Assembly: GCA_009692115.1 (NCBI GenBank)
Contig: SHZU01000002.1
Coordinates: 310,001-374,000, forward strand
DNA from: Gemmatimonadota bacterium
GTDB taxonomy: Bacteria > Gemmatimonadota > Gemmatimonadetes > Gemmatimonadales > GWC2-71-9
Length of the DNA stretch: 64,000 bases
Direction of reading: 5' to 3'
Part shown: positions 11,127 to 64,000 of the stretch, piece after piece
Layout: each line of letters starts with the position of its first letter
Numbering within the stretch: position 1 is the first letter of the stretch
Notes under the pieces: model-generated
Seen by the model: the letters and a program-made list of their open reading frames with translations, nothing else
What the model was told of the DNA's origin: nothing
Database searches by the model: none
Program-made: the position numbers and the translations under genes

Positions 11127-12500
11127 ATGAACCTATTTCTTCAGTCCGATTCAGGTCCACTCCACTTCGTCGGTATTGGCGGCGCGGGGATGAGTGCGCT
11201 CGCCTTGGTGGCCCTCCGCCGCGGCGTGAAGGTGACCGGGTCGGACTCCGACATCAGCGGCGTTGGGGAAATGGTGGCCGCCGGCGCGGAGGTGCGGGCG
11301 GGCAGCGCCGTCGAGCTGATCCACCGGACTACCACCGTCATCGCCAGCGCCGCCATTCCCGCCGATCACCCCGATCTGGTTCGGGCCCGCCAGCTCGGGA
11401 TTCCAATGGTTTCGCGGAAGGACGCGCTCGCCGGCCTCATCGGCTCGGCCACCTGCGTGGCCATCGCGGGCACTCACGGAAAGACGACGACGACGGTCAT
11501 GGCCACCGAGGCGCTCGCCGCCGCCGGCCTCGACCCGACGGGATTGGCCGGTGGGCGGGTGCCCGATTGGGGTGGCAACGCCCGGCTCGGTGGGACCGAC
11601 CTCTTCGTGGTGGAAGCCGATGAATACGACCAGGCGTTCCTGACGCTCCGCCCGACCATCGCGGTGGTCAATAACGTCGAGCCCGATCATTTGGAGTGCT
11701 ACGGCTCCGTCGAGGCGATGGAGGCGGCCTACGTGACGTTTGCGGGGCGGGCCTGCCGAGTCCTGGTCGGGAATGACGGGCCGGGTTCCGACCGGGTCGC
11801 CGCCCAGCTGGAGGCGGGCTCGGTCTGGCGCTTCGGTCCCGGCGCGCCAGACCTCGGCGTCGACATTCGGCGGCAGTCCGCCGCCGGGACCGAGGCGGCG
11901 GTGAGGTTTCCCGACGGGGTCGAGATCACCGTTGAGTTGACGGTGCCCGGGGTTCACAATCTCCGGAACGCGACGGCGGCGTTAGGTGTGGTCGGGGCGC
12001 TCGGCGGCGACCGGGAACGGGCGGCGGCGGCGCTCGGACGGTTCACCGGCGTGGGCCGCCGGTTCGAACGGGTGGGCGAGGTGGGCGGCGTCACGGTGAT
12101 CGACGACTACGCCCACCATCCCACGGAACTGGTGGCCACGCTCGGGGCGGCGCGCCAGGCGTTTCCGGGCCGGCGGCTGGTGGCCGCGTTTCAGCCCCAC
12201 CTATTCAGCCGCACCGCCCTGCACAGTGACGCCATGGGCGCCGCGTTGGCAGCCGCCGATGTGGCCGTCGTCACCGACATCTACCCGGCGCGTGAAGCTC
12301 CGATCCCCGGGATTACCGGCTCCTTGGTGGCGGAGGCGGCTATTCGCCGCGGCGTTCGAGTGATCTACCAGCCAATCCGGGCGGACGTGGCCGAGACCAT
12401 CCGAGCGGTGCTCCAGCCGGGCGATGTGCTGATCACCCTTGGGGCAGGCGATATTACCCGGGTCGGCCGTGAGCTGTTGCCGGTCCTGGCATCCGGATGA
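11127..12500 (+). CDS. murC: UDP-MurNAc: L-alanine ligase
   Basis: MurC adds L-alanine to UDP-MurNAc, the first peptide step. The 457-residue ligase has FVGIGGAGMSALA (14-26), the ATP loop GTHGKTTTT (115-123), EADEYDQAF, NVEPDHLE and the C-terminal motif DDYAHHPTE, all standard for MurC. murB, which often follows or is fused to murC, is not found; ftsQ follows directly with an ATGA overlap. Confidence 0.95.
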   Translation: MNLFLQSDSGPLHFVGIGGAGMSALALVALRRGVKVTGSDSDISGVGEMVAAGAEVRAGSAVELIHRTTTVIASAAIPADHPDLVRARQLGIPMVSRKDALAGLIGSATCVAIAGTHGKTTTTVMATEALAAAGLDPTGLAGGRVPDWGGNARLGGTDLFVVEADEYDQAFLTLRPTIAVVNNVEPDHLECYGSVEAMEAAYVTFAGRACRVLVGNDGPGSDRVAAQLEAGSVWRFGPGAPDLGVDIRRQSAAGTEAAVRFPDGVEITVELTVPGVHNLRNATAALGVVGALGGDRERAAAALGRFTGVGRRFERVGEVGGVTVIDDYAHHPTELVATLGAARQAFPGRRLVAAFQPHLFSRTALHSDAMGAALAAADVAVVTDIYPAREAPIPGITGSLVAEAAIRRGVRVIYQPIRADVAETIRAVLQPGDVLITLGAGDITRVGRELLPVLASG

Positions 12501-13165
12501 GACGGTGGTGGGTGGCCGGGTCGGTGGTTTCGGTGGCCGTGCTGTGGCTCCTCGGCCCGTCGGCGCTTCGGAAGCTGGAGATCTTCCGGGTTCGGCGGGT
12601 TGAAGTGCTGGGAGCCCGGTACCTGAGTGCCGCTGAGGTGACCCGGGCGTTGGCGCTCCGCCCGGCGGCCAGCGTCTTCGACGAGACCGCACCGCTGGCG
12701 GCCCGCGCCCTGGCAATCCGCGGCGTTCGGTCCGCGGTGGTCCGGACTCGACTCCCCGGAACACTCGAAGTCGAGATCGAGGAGTTCGAGCCGGTGGCAC
12801 TCGCCCCGATCGACGGCAAGTTGACCCTAGTGGATCGACGTGGACGGTCATTACCCTTCGACCCGACTCGGGCCGGCACGGACTTGCCGGTGGCCGAGGC
12901 CGATCCGGCGGTGGCCGCCCTGATCGACCGGGTCCGGGATGCCGACCCCGGGTTTTTTGGAGCGGTCACCTTGGCCAGCCGGGAGCGAAATGTGATCGTG
13001 GTTGAAACCGCCCGCCATCGAGTGTTGTTTCGGGTTGGGGCATCGATCAAGGACATCCAGGCAGCCGGCGCGGTCATCGCGGAAGTGGTTCGCCGCCGAA
13101 TGGCGGTGACCGAGCTTGATGCTCGGTTCGAAGGTCGGGTTGTCGTGCGGGGGAGGCGGGGATGA
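12497..13165 (+). CDS. ftsQ: Cell division protein FtsQ (POTRA domain)
   Basis: A 222-residue bitopic protein: a short cytoplasmic RR start, one membrane segment (about 4-20), then a POTRA-like domain starting FRVRRVEVLGARYLSAAEV, followed by a beta-rich FtsQ domain. FtsQ links early and late divisome proteins in the periplasm. Position between murC and ftsA, ATGA overlaps at both ends and topology support the call although sequence identity in this family is low. Confidence 0.88.
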   Translation: MRRWWVAGSVVSVAVLWLLGPSALRKLEIFRVRRVEVLGARYLSAAEVTRALALRPAASVFDETAPLAARALAIRGVRSAVVRTRLPGTLEVEIEEFEPVALAPIDGKLTLVDRRGRSLPFDPTRAGTDLPVAEADPAVAALIDRVRDADPGFFGAVTLASRERNVIVVETARHRVLFRVGASIKDIQAAGAVIAEVVRRRMAVTELDARFEGRVVVRGRRG

Positions 13166-56392: not shown

Positions 56393-56881
56393 ATGGTCCG
56401 GATGACAATCGCCCACTTGGGACTTGATCGATCGACGAATTCGCCGGTCGTGGTCCTGAAGGAGCAGGGGGGCGACCGGGTGCTCCGAATCTGGATCGGC
56501 GCGCCCGAAGCCACGGCGATCGCCCTCGCGCTCCGAGGGGAGTCGCCGCCGCGCCCGATGACCCACGATCTCCTCAAGCACCTTCTCGTCGGCGTGGGCG
56601 GCGTCCTCCGCCGGGTCACTATAACGGGCATGAAAGACAGTACCTACTTCGCCGAACTGTTGGTGTTCCGGGCCGGACAAATCATCGAAATCGACGCTCG
56701 GCCTTCCGACGCCATCGCCCTCGCGCTCCGGACCGAGGCCCCAATCTTCGTGACGGACGAGGTGCTGGACGGCGAGAGCTCCGGGCCGAGCGCGATGCCG
56801 GCCACGGAGTCGGCCGCCGACCAACTCAAGAAGTTCCTCGCCAAGCTCGACCCCGAAGACCTCGGGCGCTTCCAACCGTGA
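56393..56881 (+). CDS. DUF151 / bifunctional nuclease family protein
   Basis: 162 residues. The DUF151 core is evident in PVVVLKEQGGDRVLRIWIGAPEATAIALAL, RPMTHDLLKHLL, YFAELLVFRAGQIIEIDARPSDAIALALR and the C-terminal LKKFLAKLDPEDLGRF. Members are described as bifunctional RNase/DNase or stress proteins, but cellular function is uncertain. It begins 15 nt after metK and overlaps the next gene (GTGA). Confidence 0.88.
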   Translation: MVRMTIAHLGLDRSTNSPVVVLKEQGGDRVLRIWIGAPEATAIALALRGESPPRPMTHDLLKHLLVGVGGVLRRVTITGMKDSTYFAELLVFRAGQIIEIDARPSDAIALALRTEAPIFVTDEVLDGESSGPSAMPATESAADQLKKFLAKLDPEDLGRFQP

Positions 56882-57843
56882 GGTGGCGTCGATGCGCGGT
56901 GGCGGTCGCGTGCGTCATCGCCGGGCCCCTTACGGCCCAGCGCCCAACCGACGTCGGTGGAACCGTGCGTCGCCCGGCGCTGCCGGCCGCGGTCCCGGTC
57001 GGCGGGGTCCGGGTCGTCCTCCATCGGGTCGGCCTGGCTTCTCAGGGTCCGATTGATACGGTGGTGACGGACGGGACGGGCGGTTTTCGCTTCAGCTTCC
57101 GGGCCGACCCGACTTCGAACTATTTGGTGAGCGCCCGGCACGCCGGCATTGAGTATTTCTCCGCACCGTTGGCGACGAACCGAGCCCGGCCCGACACCGG
57201 CATCGAACTCGTGGTGTACGATACCTCGGCCGCCGCCCCGGTCATCACCCGCAGTCGAACCCTGGTGGTCGGGGCACCCGACGCCACTGGCTCACGCACT
57301 GTGATCGACTGGTTCGTCCTTGAGAACACCGGCACCCGGACCAGAGTTGGTCGGGATTCGGCCGCTCCGACCTGGTCGGCCGGGTTGCCGGCGGGCATTC
57401 GCGGCCCCGAGGTCGGAGACGCCAGGCTGTCGCAGATCTCGGCTGACGCCGTCACGTTTCGGGACGACAGCGTGCTCGTCGGGGCACCGATTTCGCCCGG
57501 CCAGAAGGAGCTCCTCATTCAATACGAGGTCACCAAGGACCTCCGGAGCCTCGACGTACCGCTCGGCCGGGTCGACTCCGTTGACCTGTTCATTGAAGAG
57601 ACCGGCCTGGTTCCCGACCCGGCCGGGTGGCGGGTCCGGGACTCCCAGATGTTCGAAGGCCGCCCGTTTCGCCGGTATCAGCGGCTGGGCGCCGAATCCG
57701 GGTTGACCCTCCGGTTTCGTCGCACCTCGTTGCCCAAGGCAGTATTGCCCGTGCTCGTCTCGGTGATCGGGCTCGGCCTGTTCGGAGGCGCCTGGTTTCT
57801 GATGCGCCGGAGTGGCCTTGCTCGGCCGGGGGCACCGTCCTAA
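56878..57843 (+). CDS. Exported, membrane-anchored protein with carboxypeptidase-regulatory-like domain
   Basis: 321 residues. A signal peptide (RWRRCAVAVACVIAGPLTAQ) is followed by a beta-sandwich at about 35-105 (GVRVVLHRVG, TDGTGGFRFSF), as in carboxypeptidase-regulatory/CnaB folds, then further beta-rich sequence. A C-terminal membrane helix (about 288-307) precedes MRRSG. Topology predicts a periplasmic body with a short cytoplasmic tail. I cannot assign a function. It precedes the cobalamin riboswitch but is not under its control. Confidence 0.65.
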   Translation: MRWRRCAVAVACVIAGPLTAQRPTDVGGTVRRPALPAAVPVGGVRVVLHRVGLASQGPIDTVVTDGTGGFRFSFRADPTSNYLVSARHAGIEYFSAPLATNRARPDTGIELVVYDTSAAAPVITRSRTLVVGAPDATGSRTVIDWFVLENTGTRTRVGRDSAAPTWSAGLPAGIRGPEVGDARLSQISADAVTFRDDSVLVGAPISPGQKELLIQYEVTKDLRSLDVPLGRVDSVDLFIEETGLVPDPAGWRVRDSQMFEGRPFRRYQRLGAESGLTLRFRRTSLPKAVLPVLVSVIGLGLFGGAWFLMRRSGLARPGAPS

Positions 57844-57850
57844 CTTCGGC

Positions 57851-58010
57851 CCCGTAGGTTCTTTCGATCGCAGCTCTCGGAAGCCGGTGTGAATCCGGCG
57901 CGGCCCCGCCACTGTCACGGGGAGCAGTTCCTTCGCTCACACGCCACTGGGTCACACCGGGAAGGCGAGCGGAGCACCCCCTGAGCCAGGAGACCGCTGT
58001 GATCCGTCCG
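57851..58010 (+). ncRNA. Cobalamin (AdoCbl) riboswitch
   Basis: Recognised from core sequences in the expected order: GTAGGTTC near the 5' side, GGAAGCCGGTGTGAATCCGG (57879-57898), GCCACTGTCACGGGG (57908-57922) and the B12 box-type GAGCCAGGAGACC (57983-57995). It lies in the 195-nt gap before btuF. Binding of adenosylcobalamin normally represses the downstream genes, which here are a B12 importer. Boundaries are approximate. Confidence 0.92.
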
Positions 58011-58019
58011 TCGGCCAAA

Positions 58020-58033
58020 CCCTCGGGGGAGGG
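58020..58033 (+). promoter_or_regulatory. Small hairpin masking the btuF ribosome binding site
   Basis: CCCTC (58020-58024), four G, then GAGGG (58029-58033) can pair as a 5-bp hairpin. The right arm includes the Shine-Dalgarno purines, 5 nt before GTG 58039. No T-tract terminator follows, so control of translation initiation by the riboswitch is the simpler reading. The pairing is seen; the mechanism is inferred. Confidence 0.45.
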
Positions 58034-58038
58034 CGTTG

Positions 58039-58908
58039 GTGACCCGATTCTTATTCCTGCTATCGGCCGCCGTTCTCGGGTGCGGCCGAAGCCCGCTACC
58101 GCCTGCGACCGTCACGCTGACCGACGACGCCGGGTTTTCCACCGCCCTCGCCGGGCCGGCGGGCCGGATCGTGTCGTTGATCCCCGCCGCCACCGAACTG
58201 CTCTTTGCCTTGGGCCTGGGTGATCGCGTGGTGGGCCGCACCCAATGGTGCGACTATCCGGCGGAGGTCGGCCAAATTCCCTCGGTCGGAGATGGCCTCG
58301 CACCGAACGTGGAAGCGATCGTCGCCCGACACCCGGATCTGGTGGTGGCGTATCGCTCGGCGAGCAACGCCGCGGCGGTCAGCCGGCTCCGCGATTTGGG
58401 TATTCCCGTCGTTGAGTTGGCCCTCGACCGCCTGGCCGACCTGGAGCGAAGTGCTCGGGTCCTCGCCACGGCCGCCGGGCGCCCGCTACTGGGTGACACC
58501 GTGATGGCCCGCGTCAACGCCGATGTTCGGGCAGCGACCCGGATGCCGGTGGTCCGCCCTTCGGTGTTCGTCCTGACTTGGCGAGATCCCCCCATCACGC
58601 TCGGCACCGGCAGTTTTTTGTCCGAGGTCATCCATTTTGCCGGCGGGACCAATCTCTTCGAGGATAATCCGCAGCCGTCATTCGTCGTTTCGATCGAGGC
58701 CGTCGCCAGCCGGAATCCTGACTGGGTGCTGCTCGTCGGTGATGATGAGCCGGCCTTCGGCGGGCGGCCGGAGTGGCAAACGGTCGGCGCCATTCGGGAC
58801 CGCCGGTTTCTCAGGGTCAATGGATCGATGTTCAATCGGCCGAGCCCGCGGATCGCCGAGGCGATTCAGCAACTCGCCGCGGCGCTCGGCTCGAGCGGTG
58901 GACGATGA
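58039..58908 (+). CDS. btuF: Cobalamin ABC transporter substrate-binding lipoprotein (BtuF-like)
   Basis: 289 residues. The N-terminus FLFLLSAAVLGCG is a lipoprotein signal with lipobox LGC (about Cys15). The class III solute-binding fold is shown by RIVSLIPAATELLFALGLGDRVVG and GRTQWCDYP, then LVVAYRSASN and NPDWVLLVGDDEP. The riboswitch upstream and btuC/btuD downstream set cobalamin as the ligand; similar proteins also bind haem or siderophores. GTG 58039 follows a GGGGGAGGG site; TTG 58036 is less likely. Confidence 0.87.
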   Translation: MTRFLFLLSAAVLGCGRSPLPPATVTLTDDAGFSTALAGPAGRIVSLIPAATELLFALGLGDRVVGRTQWCDYPAEVGQIPSVGDGLAPNVEAIVARHPDLVVAYRSASNAAAVSRLRDLGIPVVELALDRLADLERSARVLATAAGRPLLGDTVMARVNADVRAATRMPVVRPSVFVLTWRDPPITLGTGSFLSEVIHFAGGTNLFEDNPQPSFVVSIEAVASRNPDWVLLVGDDEPAFGGRPEWQTVGAIRDRRFLRVNGSMFNRPSPRIAEAIQQLAAALGSSGGR

Positions 58909-59870
58909 AGGCGCTCGGACTGGTGGGGGCCGCGATCATCGCCGCCGCGATCGCCTTGTCGATCGGCGCGGTCCCGATGTCCTTCTTGGAGGTCTTCCGG
59001 GGCGTGGTCGATCCGTCAGGCCCAGCGGGCGCCATCATCTGGGATCTTCGGATGCCGCGAATTACGCTCGCGTTCCTGGTGGGCGGCGGACTCAGCGTGT
59101 CGGGCGCCGCCCTGCAGGCGCTGGTCCGCAATCCGCTCGCCGAGCCATACCTTCTGGGGATCTCCGGGGGCGCGGGGCTCGGTGCGGTGGCGGCGATCGC
59201 ACTCGGACTCTCGGGCCTGCTCGCGATTCCGGCCGCCGCGTTTGCCGGCGCCCTTGCCTCGTCGGCCATCGTCTACTGGGTTGCCGCGGTCCAAGGCGCG
59301 CGGCTCGAGCCCCGGGTCCTGGTTCTGGTCGGCGTCGTGGTCTCGGCGTTCTGCGGCGCCATCACCACCGCCGTGTTGACGACGTCGGAGGCGGCCATGC
59401 TCCGAAACGCATTTCTGTGGCTCCTGGGCGGGTTCGGGACCGCGAGCTGGGTGTCCGTCGTGGTCTTCGCGGCGTATGCGGTCGTGCCGATCGGATTTCT
59501 GTTCGGCGCCAATCGCACCCTGGATCTTCTGTCGCTTGGCGATGAGTCTGCCGAAGCCCTGGGCGTTCGGACCGAGCGGGCCAAGGCGCTGGTCTTCGTC
59601 ACCACGGCGCTACTCACGGCCGCCAGCGTGGCGGTGAGCGGCATGATCGGCTTCGTCGGCCTAGTGGCACCTCATGCTGTTCGGGGGTGGCTCGGCCCGT
59701 TGCATCGGCACCTGATGCCGGCGGTTTTCGTCGCCGGCGGCTCGCTCCTGATCCTCGCCGACGCGATCGCCCGAACGGTGCTCCGGCCGGCTGAACTGCC
59801 GATCGGGGCCGTGACGGCCCTGATCGGAGTTCCGCTCTTTGCGGTCCTGCTCCGGCGGAGCTTGGCCTAA
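58905..59870 (+). CDS. btuC: Cobalamin ABC transporter permease (BtuC/FecCD family)
   Basis: 321 residues with about nine or ten membrane segments. It has LRMPRITLAFLVGGGLSVSGAALQALVRNPLAEP, the conserved FecCD opening, and the coupling-helix region IGFVGLVAPHAVR. ATG 58905 overlaps the btuF stop. It forms the B12 channel at the inner membrane. Confidence 0.9.
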   Translation: MKALGLVGAAIIAAAIALSIGAVPMSFLEVFRGVVDPSGPAGAIIWDLRMPRITLAFLVGGGLSVSGAALQALVRNPLAEPYLLGISGGAGLGAVAAIALGLSGLLAIPAAAFAGALASSAIVYWVAAVQGARLEPRVLVLVGVVVSAFCGAITTAVLTTSEAAMLRNAFLWLLGGFGTASWVSVVVFAAYAVVPIGFLFGANRTLDLLSLGDESAEALGVRTERAKALVFVTTALLTAASVAVSGMIGFVGLVAPHAVRGWLGPLHRHLMPAVFVAGGSLLILADAIARTVLRPAELPIGAVTALIGVPLFAVLLRRSLA

Positions 59871-59871
59871 C

Positions 59872-60657
59872 GTGCTGGTGGGCACTGACGTCTCGGTCCA
59901 GTACCCCGGCGCCGACCGACCGGCTGTAGCCCAGGTGTCGGTCGACGTGAAACCGCACCGGCTGGTCGCGGTCGTCGGCCCCAACGGGAGCGGCAAGACC
60001 ACGCTCCTTCGGGCCCTGATGGGCACGGTCGCGCTCCATTCCGGCCGGGTCGAGCTCCTCGGCCGCCCGATTGGCGGTTGGCCCCAACGGGAGCGCGCCC
60101 GGATCATTGGCGCGGTAACCCAGCGGGAGGAGTACCCGTTTGCCTGGCGGGTCGACGAGGTCGTCAGCTTCGGACGATATTCGCGCCTCTCCGCCCTGGC
60201 GGCCCTGTCCGCCGCGGACCGCGAAGCCATCGAACGAGCGATGCTCAGGGCCGATGTCCTGACCCTCGCCGGCCGGCGGATCGACACCCTGTCGGGGGGA
60301 GAGTGGCAGCGGGTTCGGATTGCCCGAGCCCTGGCGCAGGAACCGGCCCTGCTGGCACTTGACGAGCCGACGGCGTCGCTCGACTTCGGCCATGAGATGG
60401 AGATTTTCGAACTGATTCGGGAACTGGTTCAGGGTGGGCTTGCCGGGGTCCTGGTTACCCACCACCTCAACCTGGCCGCCCGGTTCGCCGACGAGATCAT
60501 CTTGCTTCACGAGGGCCGGACCGCGGCGCGGGGCCGGCCCGCGGACGTCCTGACTTCGGACCGTTTGGCCGAGGCGTTTGGCTGGCCGGTCCGGGTCTTG
60601 GAAGTCGATGGGGTGCCCCAAATCACGCCTGAGCGCCGCCGAGTGGTTCCCCGATGA
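59872..60657 (+). CDS. btuD: Cobalamin ABC transporter ATPase (BtuD-like)
   Basis: 261 residues with Walker A GPNGSGKT (36-43), Q loop TQREEYPF, signature LSGGEWQRVRIARAL, Walker B LLALDEPTASLD and H loop VTHHLN. It powers the BtuCDF importer. GTG 59872 follows the btuC stop by one base and shares the CCTAACG motif. The stop overlaps the next ATG. Confidence 0.9.
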   Translation: MLVGTDVSVQYPGADRPAVAQVSVDVKPHRLVAVVGPNGSGKTTLLRALMGTVALHSGRVELLGRPIGGWPQRERARIIGAVTQREEYPFAWRVDEVVSFGRYSRLSALAALSAADREAIERAMLRADVLTLAGRRIDTLSGGEWQRVRIARALAQEPALLALDEPTASLDFGHEMEIFELIRELVQGGLAGVLVTHHLNLAARFADEIILLHEGRTAARGRPADVLTSDRLAEAFGWPVRVLEVDGVPQITPERRRVVPR

Positions 60658-61781
60658 CCCGGTTGCCTCGCGCCCGTGGCCGCCGTATCGTTCCGTCGAT
60701 GTCGCGGTCTCTCGGTCTTTTGCTGCTGGCTGCCCCGGTTGCCGCCCTTGCCGGGTGCGCGGCGACTACGCCGCTGGCGCCCCCGCCGGAGGAGCGCCTT
60801 CTGGTGGTGAACGCCGGCGAGAACACCGTGAGCGTGATTCGGATCGAACCCGGTGTCCTCCCTGGAAAGATCAACCTCGGTCCCCTGAACGGCGCCGCGA
60901 CCGACGTGGCCGCCCGCGGCCAAATCGCCGTCGTAACCGGCGGCGGGTCCGATCGGATCGTCGTCCTTGACCTGTTCACCCAACAAATCCGCCGGACCAT
61001 CGCGCTCGCGTCCGGCAGCCGTCCGGCGGCCGTGACCATGCTCTCCGACGCGATCGCCTTTGTCGCCAACGCCGGCCTCAATACGGTGACCCGGGTCGAC
61101 CTCGACACCGGCGACACGGCCAGCGTTGACGTCGGCCAATACCCCCGCGATCTCCTGCTGACCCGCGGCCGTCTGTTCGTCGTCAACGCCAACGTCGGCC
61201 CGTGCTCCCTCGGGCTCTGCTCGCTCGGCGAAAGCTGGCTCACCGTCATCGATCCCCAAACCAACAGCCGGGCGGCTGGCCGCGACTCGATTCCGCTCCC
61301 CAGCCCCGGCAATGCCCGATCCGCGGCGCTCGGCGGGGACGGCCTGATCTATGTGGTCAACACCGGCGACGCCGACGCCGCACTGGCCGGGCGGCTCAGC
61401 ATCATCGACCCGATTCAACGGGCCGAGGTCGGCAGTTTCGGCGGGTTCGGGTTCTTGCCCTCCGCGGTCACGTCGGATGGATCCGAGCGGTTGTTCGTGG
61501 CCTCGGTTCGCGACGGATTGATGGAATTCAACACCCGAACCCGCCGGGTCGTCCGCGGGGCGGGGGACGGAATCCTCGGGAACAACATCGTGGCCGCCGC
61601 CGTCGACGGACAGGGCCGGATCTACGCGGTCGAGGTGGGCAACTGCGCGTTGCCGTTGGTCGGCCGCCTTCGGATCTTCCGCGCCGACCTGACGGAGTCG
61701 CGGAACGTGATCCTCGGCAACTGTCCGGTTGCGGTGAGTTTCGTAGAGATCCCCGGGTTGGTTACCGGCGCGACGAACTGA
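60654..61781 (+). CDS. Seven-bladed beta-propeller lipoprotein in the B12 operon (BtuG-like candidate)
   Basis: 375 residues. A lipoprotein signal ends ALAGC (Cys35 from ATG 60654, or Cys20 from the internal ATG 60699). The mature protein shows seven repeats of the YVTN/YncE type, each starting with a strand such as LLVVNAG, IAVVTGG, IAFVANAG, LFVVNAN, IYVVNTG, LFVASVR and IYAVEVG. BtuG of Bacteroides is a surface beta-propeller lipoprotein that captures cobalamin. The same architecture inside a riboswitch-controlled btuFCD operon suggests a similar role. No BtuB receptor gene is in the window. Function is inferred from fold and context. Confidence 0.75.
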   Translation: MTRLPRARGRRIVPSMSRSLGLLLLAAPVAALAGCAATTPLAPPPEERLLVVNAGENTVSVIRIEPGVLPGKINLGPLNGAATDVAARGQIAVVTGGGSDRIVVLDLFTQQIRRTIALASGSRPAAVTMLSDAIAFVANAGLNTVTRVDLDTGDTASVDVGQYPRDLLLTRGRLFVVNANVGPCSLGLCSLGESWLTVIDPQTNSRAAGRDSIPLPSPGNARSAALGGDGLIYVVNTGDADAALAGRLSIIDPIQRAEVGSFGGFGFLPSAVTSDGSERLFVASVRDGLMEFNTRTRRVVRGAGDGILGNNIVAAAVDGQGRIYAVEVGNCALPLVGRLRIFRADLTESRNVILGNCPVAVSFVEIPGLVTGATN

Positions 61782-61805: not shown

Positions 61806-62573
61806 ATGGCACCCATCGAGACCCTGGCGACGATTCTGTCGACGATCCCCTACGGCGAAACCTCGAAGGTGGCCCGCCTCGCCACCCGCGAACTCGGTGT
61901 GGTGAGCGTCATTGCCAAGGGAGCCCGGCGCCCGAGAAGCAAATTCGGGGCGGCACTTCAAGTCCTGTCCGACGGCACCGCCACCATTCTCCTGGCCCGA
62001 CACTCGGACCTCCACACCCTCACGGGGTTCGATGTCGTCCGGCTTCATTCGGACTTGGCCGCCAACATCGAGCGGTATGCGGTCGCGTCGGTCCTCGGGG
62101 AATTGATGCTCCGATTCTCTGCCCATGAACGACAAGTCGGGACCTACGATTTCTTTCGCCATTCGCTCGACGTCGTCGAGGCCGTCCCCGGTTCCGCCGT
62201 GGCGGTGGTCGGCTTGCGCTCGATTTGGGGTTTGGTCAAACATTTGGGGTTTGCTCCGTCCCTCAACGCGTGTGCCCGGGACGGCGCCGTAATCGAGAGC
62301 GACCTCGCGACCATTCCGTTTTCCCCGGCCCACGGCGGGGTGCTGTGCCGGGCCTGCGCCGTGGCCGTCGAGTCGAGTCAGTTGGCCCGTCGTGACGTCG
62401 CCGATCTCGACGTGCTGATTCACGGCTATGATGACCTGCCGGTGCTCGACGACCGCTACTTGGCGGCTCATCGCCGGCTCCTCGAGCGCTACCTCCGGTA
62501 TCACGTCGCCGAGGGACATCAATTACCGGCCCTGGCCTTCTGGGCCGAGGCGGGTTGGAAGACGGGCCCATGA
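61806..62573 (+). CDS. recO: DNA repair protein RecO
   Basis: 255 residues. The OB-fold N-terminus opens ETLATILSTIPYGETSKVARLAT and includes VIAKGARRPRSKFGAAL. The helical middle and C-terminal part follow. RecO loads RecA with RecR on SSB-coated DNA. The usual two CxxC zinc pairs are incomplete: CARD in the first position and CRAC in the second, so zinc may not be bound normally. The stop overlaps selB (ATGA). Confidence 0.9.
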   Translation: MAPIETLATILSTIPYGETSKVARLATRELGVVSVIAKGARRPRSKFGAALQVLSDGTATILLARHSDLHTLTGFDVVRLHSDLAANIERYAVASVLGELMLRFSAHERQVGTYDFFRHSLDVVEAVPGSAVAVVGLRSIWGLVKHLGFAPSLNACARDGAVIESDLATIPFSPAHGGVLCRACAVAVESSQLARRDVADLDVLIHGYDDLPVLDDRYLAAHRRLLERYLRYHVAEGHQLPALAFWAEAGWKTGP

Positions 62574-64000
62574 TTATTGGGACCGCCGGCCACATCGATC
62601 ATGGCAAGTCGGCCTTGGTCACCGCGCTGACTGGGCGGCCCGTCGACCGGCTCGCCGAGGAGCAACGGCGGGGGATTACGATCGATCTGAACTTCGCCCC
62701 CCTCGACCTACCGGGCTTGCCGCCGGCTGGATTGGTCGATGTGCCCGGGCACGAGGATCTGATCCGTACCATGGTGGCCGGGGCCACCGGGATCGACCTG
62801 GTCCTGCTGGTGATCGATCTGGCCGAAGGACCCCGGCCCCAAACCGAGGAGCATTTGGCGATCCTGGAACAGCTCCGGGTTCCCGCCGGGATTCCGGTGT
62901 TCACCAAGGCTGACTTGGTGGAGGCCGATTGGGCCGAGCTGGTGGTGGCGGATGTGATGGCCAAACTGGTAGGGTCCGTGGTCCGGTTCGAACCGCCGGC
63001 GATCGTCTCGGCGCTGACCGGCCAAGGGATCGACGACCTGCGGAACCGGCTGGCCGAACGGATCCGAACCGCCACCGCCGGCCGCGCCGACGATCTGTTC
63101 CGGATGCCGATCGACCGGGCGTTCAGCGTCGCGGGAATCGGCACGGTGGTCACGGGGACGACCTGGTCGGGACGAGTAGCCGTCGGCGAGTCGCTTCGGA
63201 TTCTCCCCGGCGGCCAGGTGGGCCGGCTTCGCTCGATCGAATCGTACGGACAGGAGCGCGAGCAGAGTGAACCGTCGACCCGAACGGCGTTAGGTCTTGT
63301 GGGTGTCGACCGGGCCGAGGTCAGTCGGGGCCAGGTGGCCGTGAGCGCTGCCGTCGACTGGGTCCCGACGTCCCTGCTTGACGTCGCGCTCGACATCCTT
63401 CCCGGAGCGCCGGCCCCGATTCGATCCCGCTCCCGGGTTCGGGTCCACCTCGGGACGGCCGAGGTGCTCGCCCGGGTCGCACCCCGAGTCCCGATCCTGC
63501 CCGGGGGCTCGGGACTCGCGCGCCTGGTGCTGGAGCGCCCGCTGCTGGCCCGAGGTGGTGATCGATTCGTGGTCCGGAGCTACAGCCCGCTGGTGACGAT
63601 CGGTGGGGGGTGGGTCGTCGACCCCACCCCGGAGCGGCGGAGTTCGTGGCCTCCGTCCCTGGGCGACGCTGACCCGCGGATTCGACTCGAGGCGCTGGTG
63701 TCCCGCCGCCGTTTCGGGCTCTTGGAAAAGGAGATCCCCTTCGGGCTCGGCACCCCGCCAGGGGAGGCAGCGCGGGTTGCCAAACGGGCCCGCGTCACCC
63801 GATTGGCCGGACGGCTGCTGGCTCCCGACACGGCCGCGGCGATCGAGCGGGCAGCCCTGGCCGTGCTCACGGAGTACCATCGGGTCCAGCCCGATCAGCC
63901 GGGTCTCTCGACCGAGACCCTGCGCCGGAGCCTCCAGGTCCCTCTGCCGCTAGCGACGGCTCTGGTGGACGATCTCCGGCAGCGAGCGCTGCTGGTGGAG
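62570..64000 (+). CDS. selB: Selenocysteine-specific elongation factor SelB (3' end outside window)
   Basis: 477 codons are present and the frame is still open at the window end. GTPase motifs are GHIDHGKS (7-14), RGITIDLNFA (SelB-type switch region), DVPGHE, TKAD and SALTGQG; domain 2 follows with GIGTVVTGTTWSG. This combination separates SelB from EF-Tu (which has NKxD). The C-terminal winged helices that bind the SECIS RNA would lie mostly beyond the window. It implies that the organism decodes UGA as selenocysteine in some messages. Confidence 0.93.
   Translation, partial: MIIGTAGHIDHGKSALVTALTGRPVDRLAEEQRRGITIDLNFAPLDLPGLPPAGLVDVPGHEDLIRTMVAGATGIDLVLLVIDLAEGPRPQTEEHLAILEQLRVPAGIPVFTKADLVEADWAELVVADVMAKLVGSVVRFEPPAIVSALTGQGIDDLRNRLAERIRTATAGRADDLFRMPIDRAFSVAGIGTVVTGTTWSGRVAVGESLRILPGGQVGRLRSIESYGQEREQSEPSTRTALGLVGVDRAEVSRGQVAVSAAVDWVPTSLLDVALDILPGAPAPIRSRSRVRVHLGTAEVLARVAPRVPILPGGSGLARLVLERPLLARGGDRFVVRSYSPLVTIGGGWVVDPTPERRSSWPPSLGDADPRIRLEALVSRRRFGLLEKEIPFGLGTPPGEAARVAKRARVTRLAGRLLAPDTAAAIERAALAVLTEYHRVQPDQPGLSTETLRRSLQVPLPLATALVDDLRQRALLVE

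Follow-up and report, generated by a model that had tools for sequence, protein, structure and literature searches.

A β-propeller lipoprotein of a Gemmatimonadota bacterium, encoded at the end of a cobalamin-riboswitch operon, probably acts as a BtuG-like cobamide-capture lipoprotein working with the receptor BtuB (a probability of about 0.7), a role that would entail cobamide binding, surface exposure and a complex with BtuB. The gene lies on contig C2 of a 3.1-Mb, 97% complete genome belonging to the order of Gemmatimonas but to a different family, within a stretch of 64,000 nucleotides that was analyzed as a whole (the window). The locus is composed of the following features, in window coordinates:

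56878–57843, plus strand: CarboxypepD_reg-like gene with a C-terminal hydrophobic segment, upstream of the riboswitch
57879–57994, plus strand: cobalamin riboswitch RF00174 (74.9 bits, E 1.3e-16)
58036–58908, plus strand: btuF, substrate-binding protein (TTG start; Peripla_BP_2 2.8e-25; nearest NCBIfam family BtuF, 1.8e-32)
58905–59870, plus strand: btuC, B12-type ABC permease (FecCD 1.2e-86)
59872–60657, plus strand: btuD, ABC ATPase (GTG start; ABC_tran; nearest NCBIfam family a corrinoid ABC ATPase)
60654–61781, plus strand: BtuG-like β-propeller lipoprotein (open frame; lipobox LAGC, YVTN repeats, AlphaFold2 propeller)

The four genes from btuF to the propeller are tightly packed on one strand behind the riboswitch, with a 4-nt overlap between btuF and btuC and abutting ends (1 nt apart) of btuC and btuD, which bears out the riboswitch–btuF–btuC–btuD order given in a preliminary description of this DNA. 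A longer btuD frame (TTG, from 59839) is probably not used, and BtuF has a lipobox-like VLGC at its N-terminus. Orthologous operons of relatives are also preceded by a cobalamin riboswitch, and such control, together with btu transport genes, is a feature shared with BtuG. The CarboxypepD_reg-like gene precedes the riboswitch and is therefore probably outside the operon; many relatives keep it at this place, immediately ahead of the riboswitch. Farther upstream are ptsI, metK and a short gene; recO, selB and clpB lie downstream. The selenocysteine elongation factor gene selB (62555–64000; TIGR00475 above cut-off) adjoins recO, and its presence suggests that the lineage may make selenoproteins. 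The operon in the window contains no btuB, which is found instead on contig C18.

The open frame of the propeller encodes 375 residues. Because both the homologues and the signal peptide point to Met16 (60699), this is probably the real start. The overlap with btuD described earlier thus holds, with 4 nt, for the open frame from 60654, and may become a 41-nt gap if Met16 is used. A signal peptide is followed by the lipobox LAG-C, whose Cys35 is invariant in 32/32 homologues, so the protein is predicted from its sequence to carry an N-terminal lipid anchor like that of BtuG, in agreement with the earlier assignment as a lipoprotein. A Pfam scan matched no family to the propeller, DUF4374 included; NCBIfam matched the YVTN repeat family with 41 bits in total. 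The seven YncE-like repeats previously read from the sequence are not plain there, but the count fits the AlphaFold2 model, in which residues 44–370 align with seven-bladed propellers. Many homologues (L130–L144 and others) carry acidic residues directly after the lipobox Cys (CSDD, CDDD, CGDD), which recall the export signal of Bacteroidota lipoproteins; the window propeller continues as CAATT, without acidic residues. Extra sequence between lipobox and propeller is present in L137 (7720–9093), L141 (3599–4972) and L128, weakly PKD-like in L137 (4.7e-4) and reminiscent of the PKD domains that occur in Bacteroides BtuH2. Locus L041 has two tandem, divergent propeller gene copies (17–1150 and 880–2325).

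The AlphaFold2 model of the window protein is an all-β propeller (pLDDT 90.1, pTM 0.86). In a Foldseek search of 350,542 PDB chains, BtuG structures, mostly cobalamin-bound, took ranks 1–4 and 6–16, with the archaeal S-layer propeller 1l0q at rank 5. The model of a second homologue (pLDDT 92.4), which is 30% identical to the window protein and comes from a different family of the class, placed BtuG structures at ranks 1 and 3–16. Re-alignment with VIA-align placed 1l0q above BtuG for both models (Z 37.5 versus ~33 for the window protein; 35.9 versus 34.1 for the second homologue), with other propellers within a few Z units for the window protein. The structure comparison proposed at the outset thus supports a seven-bladed fold with BtuG as the top Foldseek group for two models; this fold is not unique to BtuG, which in these models is the leading structural family and not the sole one. 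Structural-alignment identity between BtuG and the window family is 13–20%. In BtuG2, the cobalamin pocket is formed by Trp194, Trp272 and Tyr316 together with hydrogen-bonding residues of blades 1–4.

Sequence comparison gave a less specific picture of kinship. A single-sequence PDB search with the propeller returned chance WD40 matches only. A profile of 32 homologues placed B. thetaiotaomicron BtuG1 in the top three positions (4e-10 to 1.5e-9; 8ptd/8ptf were called BtuG1 by identity to 8blw_B across the matched stretch). We rejected this result as proof of kinship, as designed Pizza propellers lay no more than 5 bits behind, and with a broader alignment 1l0q came first (5.7e-24) and BtuG1 next. 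We then compared the window family with 20 Bacteroidota BtuG proteins, nearly all encoded directly behind a receptor-sized gene. Profile–profile alignment by hhalign gave a probability of 98.7 and a score of 122.6, while 15 generic YVTN propellers used as controls scored 185.7 against the window family and 145.4 against BtuG. By these scores, generic YVTN propellers are nearer to both the window family and BtuG than these two are to one another. Reciprocal searches were nonspecific: the Bacteroidota BtuG profile, run in 101 relatives, gave generic propellers matches at least as good as those of the window family, and the window-family profile ranked BtuG first, as judged by coordinates, in only 2 of 11 matching Bacteroidota-side genomes. 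Because generic propellers outscore BtuG and these searches do not discriminate, descent from a common ancestor with BtuG within the propellers can be proposed only as a possibility. Alternatively, a generic YVTN propeller may have been taken up independently by Gemmatimonadota as a BtuB capture lid, a reading to which we would give less than even odds; the complex would then have evolved twice, with its halves now in separate riboswitch operons in one lineage.

When 249 genomes of the phylum were searched by profile, the window family (E ≤ 1e-64) stood clearly apart from other propellers (E ≥ 1e-26). The family occurs in about 66 genomes and in eight families of the class (f1, f2 and f4–f9). 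We read the surroundings of 55 members, three of which were cut by contig ends. In 39 of the 52 evaluable loci, the same-strand upstream neighbor of the propeller is a BtuB-like TonB-dependent receptor (18 of the 33 members read in a first set and 21 of the 22 in a second), with a Dph6-like gene in between in four of the 39. The remaining 13, the window included, have the propeller beside btuFCD without a receptor, and none of the 52 lies outside a B12 context. Of the 29 btuB–propeller pairs measured, 26 have a spacing within 60 nt (median 18), the two genes often sharing a 4-nt ATGA overlap. Scans for cobalamin riboswitches were positive in 17 of 30 first-set loci, counting the window and with several of the others being contig fragments, and in 18/22 second-set loci. 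The receptors carry Plug and barrel domains; their best PDB match is E. coli BtuB, and their best NCBIfam family is TIGR01779 TonB-B12 (5.7e-71 and 5.3e-64), though under its equivalog cut-off. Linkage to btuB, as known for BtuG, is therefore a property of the family that does not extend in cis to the window locus. An additional BtuF-like substrate-binding protein is encoded beside btuB or the propeller in L052 (2960–3874) and L127 (9503–10786).

This context bears on the reading that the protein is a generic YVTN lipoprotein caught in a B12 operon by accident, with a function unrelated to cobamides. Such propellers, among them the archaeal S-layer protein 1L0Q and E. coli YncE, share the fold and repeat family, are the closest in sequence, and gave the highest structural Z and the best profile score. 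They differ in not being B12-locus lipoproteins, and all 18 examined in this phylum lack btu genes and receptors within ~1.5 kb. Given B12 loci in 52/52 evaluable cases, across eight families of the class, and the clear separation of the family in the profile search, an accidental placement is scarcely credible. The survey also settles the earlier question of whether homologues are scattered in unrelated contexts, which they are not. Chance adjacency to a receptor, considered because the window genome holds about 32 plug domains, was likewise rejected on 39/52 against 0/18.

A role close to BtuB could also be structural. The propeller is an accessory, since several genomes (G015, G029 and G066) have btuCD–btuB without a propeller of the window family, and linkage to btuB alone would fit an assembly factor, an aid to plug/TonB coupling or a glycan or peptidoglycan anchor that binds no cobamide. 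Propellers are versatile protein-binding scaffolds. Against such a function, BtuB works without a propeller of this kind in E. coli and other bacteria, the closest structures, taken together, are those of cobalamin-binding BtuG, and riboswitch control suits ligand acquisition; we consider a purely structural accessory very unlikely.

The missing receptor of the window operon was located elsewhere in the same genome. A genome search found two cobalamin riboswitches, the second of which (C18:14515–14690, minus strand) lies directly ahead of a BtuB-like receptor (C18:12563–14431, minus strand; plug domain C18:13970–14275). All five genus mates share this riboswitch–btuB arrangement in trans (6/6 genomes including that of the window), so that contamination was considered an unlikely source of the C18 locus. 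On C18, btuB is followed by a gene for a Dph6/Diphthami_syn_2-family ATP-pyrophosphatase-like protein (11880–12554, minus strand; L075), and a Dph6-like gene stands between btuB and the propeller in several relatives, with L050, L052, L058 and L060 also listed. In G022, G033, G039 and G018, all without btuB beside the propeller, btuB is under another cobalamin riboswitch (in G018 at a distance of 1.1 kb). The btuB of G212 is about 34 kb from the propeller and has no cobalamin riboswitch, and no clear BtuB was found in G006 and G007, both of which carry the propeller (93% complete). G039 retains a 64-residue 3′ btuB fossil between btuD and the propeller (L055, 9082–9270), which is also a profile match, in addition to an intact btuB, which is located on a different contig and preceded by a cobalamin riboswitch of its own. 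On the propeller tree, built with no outgroup, absence of btuB in cis corresponds to three changes, and such loci fall within cis-btuB clades. From the G039 fossil and the wide spread of the cis state, we infer that these absences are losses and that the btuFCD-only arrangement looks secondary.

This history weighs on the periplasmic role beside BtuF that had been named as the main alternative, in which the lipoprotein would be turned towards the periplasm, taking cobamide from BtuB and delivering it to BtuF. Sequence cannot reveal topology, and in the window genus the propeller is co-transcribed with btuFCD and not with btuB; the L145 propeller is also beside btuFCD without a receptor. Across most of the phylum, however, the propeller comes directly after btuB, several such loci (L130–L132, L134, L139 and L141) consist of riboswitch, btuB and propeller only, with no btuFCD in the operon, and the loci lacking btuB in cis are nested in cis-btuB clades, one of them with the fossil. 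To our knowledge, no periplasmic propeller of such a kind takes part in B12 uptake. The partner kept by the family is BtuB and not BtuF, which weakens a periplasmic hand-off and makes it rather unlikely.

The BtuG-like role remains the best explanation. It has gained from the tie of the family to BtuB across the phylum and from closest solved structures that, taken as a group, are B12-bound BtuG; that the protein is also a BtuG by common descent is a possibility. In the proposed mechanism, low intracellular cobalamin would permit riboswitch-controlled expression of btuFCD and the propeller, and the second riboswitch would allow both outer-membrane halves to be co-produced though their genes are apart. 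The propeller, tethered to the outer membrane through its N-terminal Cys, would bind corrinoid and capture cobamides for the TonB-dependent BtuB, serving it as a lid or hand-off partner; the cobamide would then pass to BtuF and on to BtuCD. CbiC, the one marker of the corrin pathway searched for, was not found in the window genome (97% complete), and B12-dependent MetH is present. Together, these are consistent with a need for cobamide import in an organism that would be unable to build the corrin ring de novo.

Several known systems offer comparison. Bacteroides BtuG (BtuG1/2/3; PDB 3DSM, 8BMX, 8BLW, 8OKV and 8PTD) caps BtuB and holds the corrinoid in a central cavity, from which a clash with a BtuB loop frees it (PMC10404256; PMC6143338). 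Like BtuG, the window family consists of lipoproteins with a seven-bladed-type propeller, encoded in most members directly after btuB and under cobalamin-riboswitch control (PMC6143338, PMC10404256); unlike BtuG, it belongs to another phylum, has btuB in trans in the window genus and is known here from sequence and models. XusB, the DUF4374 propeller lid of the Bacteroides siderophore transporter XusA (PMC13142918), pairs a propeller lipoprotein with a TonB-dependent transporter, as proposed here, but its ligand is a ferric siderophore, whereas the window family is linked to btuB and cobalamin riboswitches. BtuH and DUF4465/BtuJ are also accessory B12-capture lipoproteins of B12 loci; they belong to other domain families and are not propellers.

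BlastP searches by the discoverers of BtuG found none outside Bacteroidetes, and BtuG was described as exclusive to that phylum, its occurrence being attributed to competition in the dense gut (PMC6143338). A 2025 paper again stated that BtuG is absent from other users of BtuB (PMC12751083). We found no paper joining BtuG with Gemmatimonadota in the literature searched. There, a BtuB-paired propeller in a second phylum is without precedent, while B12 capture beyond Bacteroidetes has one in DUF4465 proteins, already known beyond gut Bacteroides and Bacteroidetes (PMC13398666). If the BtuG-like role is correct, a lid that captures B12, until now recorded only in Bacteroides-type bacteria, would also serve another phylum, by inheritance or by a second invention. 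The family would then provide a second system, including the cultured Gemmatimonas aurantiaca, for direct tests of the lid mechanism and of descent versus convergence. In a phylum that is mostly free-living, surface-assisted B12 capture would be a general answer to scarce B12 instead of a specialty of the gut.
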